From: Synergistales bacterium 54_24
GTDB lineage: Bacteria; Synergistota; Synergistia; Synergistales; Thermosynergistaceae
Reading direction: 5' to 3'
Assembly (NCBI GenBank): GCA_001508935.1
Contig: LGFQ01000002.1
Location: 1-52,614, forward strand
DNA: 52,614 bases
Part shown: one piece after another, positions 1,580-14,855 of the stretch
Layout of the letters: every line of letters starts with the position of its first letter
How positions within the stretch are numbered: position 1 is the stretch's first letter
Notes under the pieces: model-generated
Seen by the model: only the letters and a program-made list of their open reading frames with translations
The model's database searches: none
Told to the model about the DNA's origin: nothing
Program-made: the position numbers and the translations under genes

Positions 1580-1616
1580 AAAAGAGGCGGGGGTGGTTGT
1601 ATCCCGCCTCTTTTTC
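1580..1616 (+). terminator. Rho-independent terminator after rpsI
   Basis: aaagaggcggg...cccgcctcttttt inverted repeat with T-run. Confidence 0.85.
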
Positions 1617-1639
1617 CTTGGTTTTATGTGAATCTGCAC

Positions 1640-1815
1640 CAGGTTTCAACCTGCATTTGTGAGGAGATGGAAATGGTAAGCGGCGATGGTCCGAGTAGTA
1701 TAAGCGCACCATCTAACAGCGTAAGGGAAAGCTCGGACACCGGAATGGCCTAATTTCCCCTTCCTATATTGCCCGCCTCCGGTGTTCGTGCCTTGGGGTG
1801 CGGGCTCATTCTTTT
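1640..1815 (+). promoter_or_regulatory. structured 5' leader of mgtE, riboswitch/attenuator-like, class not assigned
   Basis: Hairpin 1685-1690/1708-1713; possible pseudoknot 1691-1695/1732-1736; antiterminator 1734-1744/1778-1788 (11 pairs, one GU); competing terminator stem 1771-1776/1800-1805 followed by tcattcttttt. Confidence 0.65.
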
Positions 1816-1887
1816 TAATCATCGTAGGCCCACCCTCATGTCAATTTAATATAGATTACATCTTGTGCTCCAAGTGGGGGTGATGTT

Positions 1888-3243
1888 ATGGAGGAGCGCT
1901 GGCAAGAACTTGTGCCCAAGTTTCAAGAGCTTTTGGCCAGAGGGGATTATATGGCCATCAAGCGTTTGTTGTCGAGCATGGAGCCCCCGGACCTCGCCGA
2001 AATGTTGGATGCGATTCCTCCAAGGACGCGCGTGCTCCTATTCAGATTGCTGCCCAAGGACCTGGCAATAGAGGTGTTCGAGCACTTAGAAGGTTCGACT
2101 CGCGAAGAACTCTTAGATCATTTTACGGACGGCGAAATCGCGGAGATCATCGAAGAGATGTCCGATGACGATCGCACTGCGCTCTTCGATGAGCTGCCAG
2201 CTAAGACGGTAAAAAAACTCCTCCTCAAGCTGTCGCCTGCGGAGAGGGATATTGCCAACGAGCTCTTAAATTACCCTGAGAGCTCCGCAGGTCGAATAAT
2301 GACGCCCGAATTTGTGGACCTTAAGGAGTATATGACGGCTGAGGAGGCTATAAGGCGCATACGTCAGCAGGCGCGGAAGAAGGAGACAATATACACGTGC
2401 TTCGTGATAGATAGAGAAAGGCGGCTTTTGGGGGTCGTGAACCTGGAGGACCTTATCATGGCCGAGCCCCAAACTTCAGTGCGCGCCATAATGAACCCCG
2501 ATCCAGTCTGTGTCAGCACCGACACAGACCAGGAGGAAGTGGCTCGGATCATGGCTAGGTATGACCTCCATACCATACCGGTCGTGGACAAAGAAAACAG
2601 ACTGGTCGGCATCATCACATTTGATGATATAATGGATGTCCTTGAAGAGGAGACCACCGAAGATTTCGAGAGGATGGCCGGTATTCAACCTACGGAAGAG
2701 GGGTATCTGGACACCAACGTTTTTACGCTTGCGCGCAAGCGCTTCATGTGGCTTACAATATGCGTTTTAACAGAGACTATAACCTCTTCCGTATTAAAGG
2801 AGTATTCTCTTGAAATACAGCGCGTAGTGGCTTTGACCTATTTTATACCTTTGCTCATAGGTACGGGCGGAAATGCTGGAACCCAATCGGCCACACTCAT
2901 AATAAGAGGCATGACGGTGGGGGAGATCGGTTGGCGCGATCTGTGGAGGGTGTTTGCCCGCGAAACGCTCACCGGCTTGTTGTTGGGCGGTGCCCTGGCC
3001 ATATTGGCTGTTGTAAGGGCTTATATGCTTCATACGGGTCCAGACGTAGCCCTCATCGTAGCCTTTGCGCTTGTTGTTGTGGTGTTGTTGGGTAATTTGG
3101 CCGGGATAGCGCTGCCCGTAATCGCTAAGTTCTTTCGAGTCGATCCGGCCGTCATGTCGGGCCCGTTTATAGCCACTGTCGTAGACGTGTGCGGGCTTAT
3201 TATATATTTCAGGATCGCCAGATTCGTGTTAGGTTTGTCATGA
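1888..3243 (+). CDS. mgtE: magnesium transporter MgtE
   Basis: N-terminal MgtE helical domain, two CBS domains (NPDPVCVSTDTDQEEVARIMARYDLHTIPVVD), C-terminal TM part with PLLIGTGGNAGTQSATLIIRG. Confidence 0.96.
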   Translation: MEERWQELVPKFQELLARGDYMAIKRLLSSMEPPDLAEMLDAIPPRTRVLLFRLLPKDLAIEVFEHLEGSTREELLDHFTDGEIAEIIEEMSDDDRTALFDELPAKTVKKLLLKLSPAERDIANELLNYPESSAGRIMTPEFVDLKEYMTAEEAIRRIRQQARKKETIYTCFVIDRERRLLGVVNLEDLIMAEPQTSVRAIMNPDPVCVSTDTDQEEVARIMARYDLHTIPVVDKENRLVGIITFDDIMDVLEEETTEDFERMAGIQPTEEGYLDTNVFTLARKRFMWLTICVLTETITSSVLKEYSLEIQRVVALTYFIPLLIGTGGNAGTQSATLIIRGMTVGEIGWRDLWRVFARETLTGLLLGGALAILAVVRAYMLHTGPDVALIVAFALVVVVLLGNLAGIALPVIAKFFRVDPAVMSGPFIATVVDVCGLIIYFRIARFVLGLS

Positions 3244-4646: not shown

Positions 4647-5357
4647 ATGGCAAGGGTTAGCAAGCGTTATGCTTCTCTTTTGGAGAAGGTGGACAGGAAC
4701 AAGTATTATAGCCTCAAAGAGGCTGTGCGCCTCGTCAAAGAGACCGCCACGGCCAAGTTCGACGAGAGCGTGGAGATGCACATCCGTTTGGGCGTGGATC
4801 CTCGCCACGCCGAGCAGCAAGTGCGAGGGAGCATAATTCTCCCCCACGGCACGGGCACTACCAAGCGGGTCCTCGTCATAGCCTCTGGAGAAAAGATGAA
4901 GGAAGCTCAAGAGGCTGGGGCCGATTACGTGGGCGGCGAGGATATAGTGCAGAAGATCGAAGGGGGATGGCTGGACTTCGATGCCGTCGTCGCGACACCT
5001 GACATGATGCGCGTCATGGGAAGGGTCGGACGCATTTTGGGTCCGAGAGGTCTCATGCCCAGCAGCAAAGCTGGCACTGTAACGCTCGACGTTGCCGATG
5101 CCGTAAGGGAGATCAAGGCTGGGAGAGTCGAATTCAGAGTGGATAAATTTGGGATAATTCATAATGCCATCGGGAAGGCGAGCTTTTCCGAAGATGCGCT
5201 TTTTGACAACGCAAAAGCGTTGCTGCGGGCCGTTTTGAGAGCGCGCCCGTCGACTGTAAAAGGACAATATGTGCGAAGTATCGCTTTGAGCATGACTATG
5301 GGTATCAGCGTTCGCGTCGATCCCTTCACTGCTCAAAAGGAGTTAGTAGAACAGTAA
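4647..5357 (+). CDS. rplA: 50S ribosomal protein L1
   Basis: [43 protein letters not shown]...[21 protein letters not shown] 4647 chosen over the longer ORF start. Confidence 0.97.
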
Positions 5358-5508
5358 GTATAGATTTGGACTACAGACAGTGGGTGCCCAAAAGGGGGCT
5401 TAAATATTTGCCCACCGAGGTCCGCAAGCTCTAACGGCACGCCAATGTTTTTAGATTTTGGTGTCTTTGGGCTCTTGGACCTCATGCGGGTTCAGGGGCC
5501 TTTTAATT
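5358..5508 (+). promoter_or_regulatory. ribosomal protein L10 (rplJL) leader with attenuator hairpin
   Basis: Between rplA and rplJ: GACAG...ttgcccaCCGAGGTccgc element typical of L10 leaders; hairpin 5470-5481/5489-5500 followed by ttttaatttt. Confidence 0.75.
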
Positions 5509-5581
5509 TTGTCGCCTTTGTAATCTGGTTTTGGTTTTTGTGCGGCTTGGGACATAATCCTATGAGTAGGAGGTGAAAAAT

Positions 5582-14363: not shown

Positions 14364-14450
14364 GCCGGGCTGGCGGAAGTGGCAGACGCACGGGACTTAA
14401 AATCCTGTGGACTTAGGTCCGTGCGGGTTCGATTCCCGCGCCCGGCACCA
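14364..14450 (+). tRNA. tRNA-Leu (anticodon TAA)
   Basis: GCCGGGC/GCCCGGC acceptor stem, anticodon loop CTTAAAA, long variable arm, GGTTCGATTCC T-arm, encoded CCA. Confidence 0.97.
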
Positions 14451-14632
14451 ATGCAAATATCGCCTGCATTGCTGTTCAGGCTTGCTAAAGAAAAGTAGGA
14501 CCCCTGCGGCCATAAACAAGCACTCTTTCGTAGCCAAAAAGACTAAGGAGGGCGCTTATTTGTGGGCCTCGTTCCGTGAGGTGGCCCCTAAAAATCCTAC
14601 AAAAAATTTACATGATCCACGATCGACGGCAT

Positions 14633-14662
14633 TTGACTATACCCTTGTGGCTGTGCTAATAT
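14633..14662 (+). promoter_or_regulatory. promoter upstream of the tRNA-Met pair
   Basis: TTGACT - 18 nt - TAATAT. Confidence 0.5.
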
Positions 14663-14698
14663 ATACGCGCTATGGAGTGCCGGCATAGGTGTGAAGAT

Positions 14699-14777
<79 letters not shown>

Positions 14778-14778
14778 C

Positions 14779-14855
14779 GGCGGTGTAGCTCAGGTGGCTA
14801 GAGCATGCGGTTCATACCCGCAGTGTCAGTGGTTCAAGTCCACTCACCGCCACCA
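14779..14855 (+). tRNA. tRNA with CAT anticodon (elongator tRNA-Met most likely; Ile2 not excluded)
   Basis: GGCGGTG/CACCGCC acceptor stem, anticodon loop TTCATAC, GGTTCAAGTCC T-arm, encoded CCA. Confidence 0.93.

Follow-up and report, generated by a model that had tools for sequence, protein, structure and literature searches.

The window analysed here, a stretch of 52,614 nucleotides from Synergistales bacterium 54_24, carries rpsI, then mgtE, then secE/nusG/rplK. The mgtE gene (1888..3243, + strand) encodes a Mg2+ channel/transporter of 451 amino acids with matches to Pfam MgtE (PF01769, 4e-35), MgtE_N (PF03448) and CBS, in agreement with the initial annotation of the locus. Its leader is bounded upstream by the intrinsic terminator of rpsI (1580..1618, + strand; a stem-loop with a T-run, -20.7 kcal/mol), and no promoter for the leader was recognised in a consensus scan of the window. 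Elsewhere in the window, a ribosomal protein L10 leader (5353-5515; RF00557, 52 bits) and three tRNA genes (14364-14852; Rfam) were found, all of them ordinary.

A second intrinsic terminator lies within the mgtE leader (1771..1816, + strand; stem 1771-1805, T-run 1810-1816, -21.9 kcal/mol) and was detected by the consensus scan. A DNA search with the whole leader returned one congener (genome G001) as the sole match, the leader of which (L022) is 88% identical to that of the window and contains the same terminator with a better T-run; a second short match (L020) was rejected as a chance match within a coding region. Inside the terminator, region 3 (1778..1788, + strand; TCCGGTGTTCG) forms the 3' arm of an antiterminator, making 11 consecutive pairs, one of them G.U, with region 2 (1734..1744, + strand; CGGACACCGGA), as the initial annotation had proposed. 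The strings on which that annotation was built were all found in place, namely GATGGT (1685-1690), CCGAG (1691-1695), ACCATC (1708-1713), CTCGG (1732-1736) and the terminator arms GCCCGC (1771-1776) and GCGGGC (1800-1805), the latter followed by TCATTCTTTTT. That terminator and antiterminator are mutually exclusive was borne out by the helix list, the terminator scan and folding prediction. Of the helices in the leader, the 11-bp one is the best; since an equally good helix occurred in 46 of 500 shuffles, its credibility comes from its position, in that it overlaps the 5' arm of the terminator, persists in L022 and has counterparts in 18 of 21 leader groups (see below).

The remaining elements had been read as the aptamer of an undescribed riboswitch, in which the hairpin GATGGT/ACCATC and an H-type pseudoknot between its loop (CCGAG) and CTCGG would bind Mg2+ or another cation, whereupon the terminator would fold. 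The hairpin is lost in the only close relative (GATGGT...GTGCTTTC in L022), and a 6-bp hairpin with a complement of its 5-nt loop at most 40 nt downstream was present in 220 of 1000 dinucleotide-shuffled leaders. The CCGAG/CTCGG complementarity is better taken as part of an ordinary 8-bp helix between region 1 (1689..1696, + strand) and 1731-1738, which appears in the helix list and the MFE structure, and the region 1 sequence also occurs in L022. The overall folding stability of the leader was not unusual (z -0.96). An Rfam/Infernal search gave no match to the M-box (RF00380) in the leader at the gathering score or at E<=10, the same search detecting M-boxes in Clostridial mgtE leaders, and none to NiCo, yybP-ykoY, Na+, Li+ or any other riboswitch among the 4227 Rfam models at either threshold; at E<=10, only weak unrelated matches, mostly on the rpsI terminator, were obtained within 1560-1900. 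The leader thus falls outside the M-box and every other Rfam class, as had been supposed. In favour of a riboswitch is the real terminator/antiterminator pair ahead of a gene for a Mg2+ transporter, but with a broken aptamer hairpin, a pseudoknot common among shuffles, no Rfam match, no unusual structure, and relatives that conserve a reading frame with third-position variation (see below), this explanation is very improbable. What stands of the earlier reading is the sequence elements, the exclusive structures ahead of mgtE, the lack of an Rfam class and a plausible link to cation supply, while the chance-level hairpin and pseudoknot, and with them the ligand-binding aptamer, do not. Given the loss of the aptamer hairpin in the congener and the conservation among relatives of a short open reading frame (ORF) rather than a fold, the input of the switch is more likely to be the progress of a ribosome on a leader peptide than the binding of a cation by the RNA.

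The ORF in question, which the initial annotation overlooked, spans all of the elements listed in it except the terminator. This upstream ORF (uORF; 1673..1753, + strand) comprises 26 codons (MVSGDGPSSISAPSNSVRESSDTGMA), starts with the ATG at 1673 and ends with the TAA at 1751-1753. By direct reading it is preceded by the Shine-Dalgarno (SD) sequence AGGAG (1662..1666, + strand), located 6 nt 5' of the ATG and kept in L022 and in most of the uORFs of relatives. Region 1 coincides with uORF codons 6-8 (GGT CCG AGT) and region 2 lies within the last seven codons, where it would be covered by a terminating ribosome. In L022, the SD, start, frame, length and stop of the uORF are all retained (peptide MVSSDGPSSLSVLSNSVRKSSDTGTA), and eight of the first nine residues are common to the two peptides. 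Changes are found mainly after residue 9, and the middle of the peptide varies freely within the genus, with at least six amino-acid changes and one silent change (hand count); as judged from this one congener, within-genus selection appears to be confined to the peptide start.

Related SD-preceded uORFs were found before mgtE in other genomes. In the Synergistota they follow the theme M-D/E-x-G-x-x-P-L, with MESGSVPL in Acetomicrobium (L023/L091), MEEGASPL in Thermovirga (L025/L092; the same in L024), MDHDSVPLYRP (L026), MDQGAVPL (L029, L032, L033), MDSG[ILT]VPL (L030, L031, L035), MDSGPQ (L048, L049) and MDQHADGIPL with variants (L042, L046, L047); more distant Synergistota mgtE paralogues are preceded by MDAGPG, MDAEPS and MDDVPGSS, among others. 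Scanning named genomes revealed MDAGSSGNIPGRSS-type ORFs before Clostridia mgtE, and the class sample of Clostridia contained MDSGPLP, MDTGPVP, MDPVPLP, MDYPDPLP, MDTVPLP and MDSSPLP, some of them strikingly similar to E. coli MgtL (MEPDPTPLP...). In the sample from one Oscillospiraceae family, an M[DE] uORF behind an SD was present in 26 of 29 mgtE leaders, almost always of the MDAGSS..GRS-like type, and Bacilli of the Erysipelotrichia type had MDEIPK, MDDSPK, MDSYPS and MDGSPS. The uORFs are about 14-40 codons long, and conservation is confined to the first 8-14 residues, the tails varying in sequence and length. Common features are an acid at residue 2, Gly at residue 4 and then Pro.

The frequency of such uORFs was determined with fixed criteria (SD-preceded, 10-60 aa, start M[DE], P or G in residues 3-8), which were set after examples had been seen and applied identically to the controls. 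As related leaders are not independent, they were deduplicated on shared 9-mers or assigned to groups manually, and the counts refer to genome samples, partly MAGs, with Proteobacteria and Actinobacteria outside the sample (L102, labelled Proteobacteria, is WOR-3-like). In the Synergistota, 24 of 60 non-redundant mgtE leaders carried a uORF of this kind, compared with 1 for the antisense strand and 2.5 for shuffles (maximum 5 in 40 rounds); the strict motif is missing from 36 of the 60. For Clostridia the corresponding numbers were 27 of 66 mgtE leaders, 0 antisense and 1.4 in shuffles (maximum 4), and for Bacilli 6 of 18 leaders. Leaders of corA, considered as a second target in the same Synergistota, were at chance level (2 of 29). 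The corA leader L296 (family f5) has an SD-preceded, MgtL-like MEGDSSSTPVPRQRFATR, possibly by chance, in a family whose mgtE leader is without a uORF. Among ten aligned M[DE]x[GD]xxPL uORFs, the fractions of pairs differing at codon positions 1, 2 and 3 of the G, P and L codons were 0.00, 0.07 and 0.53, respectively, and in the Clostridial MDxGSS ORFs the Asp2 and Gly4 codons vary at position 3 alone. This codon pattern, with variation in third positions, indicates selection on the peptide. The uORF of the window probably belongs with a widespread type (M-D/E-x-G...P) that precedes the mgtE genes of Synergistota, Clostridia and a number of Bacilli.

The window peptide is atypical for this class. 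It agrees in position, SD and the presence of SGDGP, but has Val instead of Asp or Glu at residue 2, a single early acid (Asp5) and a single early proline (Pro7), the acidic, proline-containing N-terminus being clearer in relatives (MDSGPLP, MDPVPLP, MESGSVPL). The family with the MgtE closest to that of the window has the uORF MESGSVPL, in which the second codon, GAA, differs from the GTA of the window by one base. Val2, the one early acid and the freely changing middle of the peptide in L022 could mean that the window uORF is a chance ORF or a degenerate remnant in front of a plain constitutive attenuator; this is highly unlikely given the SD, start, frame, length, stop and eight of nine first residues common to L022, and the typical uORFs carried in mgtE leaders by the other Synergistota families sampled.

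Composition also bears on whether the attenuator might respond to an amino acid or its tRNA (charging with proline, serine or glycine) and not directly to Mg2+, by comparison with the Pro codons of mgtP and mgtL. Pro is frequent at residues 4-9 in the class, the window peptide is Ser-rich, and sensing through Pro codons has been published for mgtP (PMC3641672). Clustered codons of one amino acid, as in attenuators of the trp/his type, are nevertheless absent from the window uORF, the Ser codons of which are scattered over the 26 codons, and no single repeated codon common to the uORFs of relatives was found. Since the members share an acidic residue 2, Gly4 and a following Pro rather than a run of one amino acid's codons, and many of them have one Pro or none within the first ten residues, amino-acid sensing is unlikely, if a more serious candidate than a riboswitch or a remnant.

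Whether the RNA around the uORFs has attenuator-type pairing was evaluated with shuffled sequences. In the Synergistota, the uORF's 3' end (its last 15 codons and the 12 nt past the stop) paired with the downstream sequence better than shuffles did in the 18 of 21 leader groups mentioned above (mean z -0.87, t=-4.7, p=1e-4), compared with z -0.11 for the 5' part of the uORF and z 0.00 for the segment upstream of it. The Oscillospiraceae leaders are wired differently: direct reading shows uORF codons 4-17 pairing with a segment behind the stop, whose last bases are CTTCC and for which the SD of mgtE is an alternative partner. The pairing of codons 4-17 had a mean z of -2.15 relative to shuffles, and the leaders' own partners outpaired swapped partners in 20000 of 20000 permutations, to which related GC content may contribute. 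A single RNA fold for the whole class was rejected, as the pairing of codons 4-16 with the post-stop segment averaged z -0.34 over 78 mixed leaders and was strong solely in those of the Oscillospiraceae type. In the MDQHADGIPL group (L042, L046, L047), a post-stop hairpin directly covers the mgtE SD, and folding does not yield a simple polarity in which ribosome drop-off leads to ON. A conserved peptide start combined with drifting RNA wiring is as expected for leader-peptide systems. The uORF class, the selection on its peptide and the attenuator-type pairing are computational observations.

Two further observations on these leaders may be added. Leaders L042 and L044-L047 have MDQHADGIPL-type uORFs, and a hairpin that begins at the stop codon of these uORFs masks the mgtE SD. 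In Oscillospiraceae leaders (L240-L268, L170, L115-L168), the nucleotides of the Arg-Ser codons CGA AGT of MDAGSS..GRS hardly vary. The Gly4-Ser5 codons, GGAAGT, are complementary to an ACTTCC behind the stop, for which the mgtE SD is another potential partner.

Conservation of the N-terminus at the amino-acid level could also be expected of a small peptide with a function of its own, such as regulating MgtE, with the RNA pairings incidental, and a role in trans has been proposed for a conserved M-box-linked uORF in mycobacteria (PMC12810186). The first 8-14 residues alone are conserved, however, on peptides with variable tails (14-40 aa), and RNA segments within and behind the uORF pair downstream more than controls, which makes a functional peptide very unlikely indeed.

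The closest parallel among known systems is MgtL of mgtA in E. coli and Salmonella, in which ribosomes are reported to be destabilised by an EPDP motif when Mg2+ is low, raising mgtA expression or transcription (PMC11282234; PMC11552253). Like MgtL, the window leader has a short SD-preceded uORF before a Mg2+ transporter gene, and alternative RNA structures that are predicted, by constrained folding and pairing statistics, to be coupled to translation; the mgtE uORFs share with MgtL an acidic, proline-containing N-terminus and, we infer, a tie between efficient uORF translation and the OFF state. MgtL differs in that its transporter is a P-type ATPase rather than MgtE, in a different phylum; in that termination is by Rho, where the window has an intrinsic terminator and other mgtE groups have anti-SD/SD pairing; and in being without the Gly4 and SS/GRS motifs of the mgtE uORFs, with no recognisable homology beyond the theme. 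MgtQ, a uORF between mgtC and mgtB in Salmonella, similarly has early acidic codons (Asp2/Glu5) in a very short ORF, and alternative stems 1:2 and 3:4 versus 2:3 (PMC8092293). It controls translation of mgtB within an operon, whereas the window leader would control transcription termination; the Oscillospiraceae leaders have the same topology as MgtQ and would act on the mgtE SD. By analogy, the window leader appears to work like MgtL and MgtQ, but its membership is not demonstrated, owing to the different transporter family and phylum, the intrinsic instead of Rho-dependent termination, and Val2 with only Asp5 and Pro7.

Three further elements were compared. The M-box (ykoK, RF00380) is also frequent before mgtE and has OFF logic, but is not matched by the window leader. 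The mycobacterial uORF2 (Rv1805A; PMC12810186) is likewise short and conserved, lies in a leader regulated by Mg2+ and keeps its N-terminus and Pro7; it differs, on the basis of its description, in being limited to mycobacteria and reported mainly behind an M-box. The mgtE motif (SRC-65-1; PMC11109978) is another orphan cis element before mgtE and was set apart by its description as a structured riboswitch candidate reported from Thioalkalivibrio only.

Taken together, the window element is probably an MgtL-like leader-peptide attenuator of mgtE, with translation, polarity and the Mg2+ signal presumed. In constrained folding with a simple ribosome mask, the terminator was predicted with the ribosome absent or at the stop codon, and the 2:3 antiterminator with the ribosome at codon 6. 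The 26-codon uORF would be translated in the host, and a ribosome reaching its stop would hide region 2, leaving region 3 free to take part in the terminator stem (1771-1805) and T-run, with mgtE OFF. If the uORF were untranslated, region 1 would sequester region 2 and the terminator would form too. Early stalling or break-off near Gly-Asp-Gly-Pro (codons 4-7) would allow regions 2 and 3 to pair, which would abolish the terminator and switch mgtE ON; stalling near codons 4-8 is predicted to free region 2. Loss of the ribosome with no stall might let region 1 re-pair with region 2, and a pause or dwell before drop-off would be required. As the signal, low cytosolic Mg2+ is most likely; by analogy with MgtL (EPDP) and MgtQ, it would destabilise ribosomes on short acidic, proline-containing N-termini; at sufficient Mg2+ the uORF would be translated to its end and mgtE kept OFF.

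In six Clostridial mgtE leaders (L140, L161, L234, L235, L237, L238), an M-box is followed by an SD-preceded uORF of the MDSSPLP, MDSGPLP, MDTGPVP or MDAS type, possibly representing two Mg2+ sensors in series. The open-access literature searched yielded no report of such mgtE uORFs, and the class seems to be a relative of enterobacterial MgtL that had so far gone unreported, a novelty that is provisional as subscription papers were outside the scope of the search. The chances are about even that ribosome-based Mg2+ sensing by acidic Gly/Pro leader peptides extends beyond enterobacteria as a widespread control of mgtE among Synergistota, Clostridia and Bacilli, whether or not the leader also has an M-box, and acting on intrinsic terminators or on the mgtE SD depending on the lineage. 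If so, orphan mgtE leaders would be explained, and riboswitch searches would be blind to such leaders because what is conserved in them is a peptide. Natural MgtL-like sequences would become available by the dozen for asking which N-terminal residues destabilise ribosomes, and the M-box and uORF in series would constitute a testable two-sensor arrangement. The ribosome would then serve, in several phyla, as a Mg2+ gauge for mgtE, the most widespread bacterial Mg2+ channel family.
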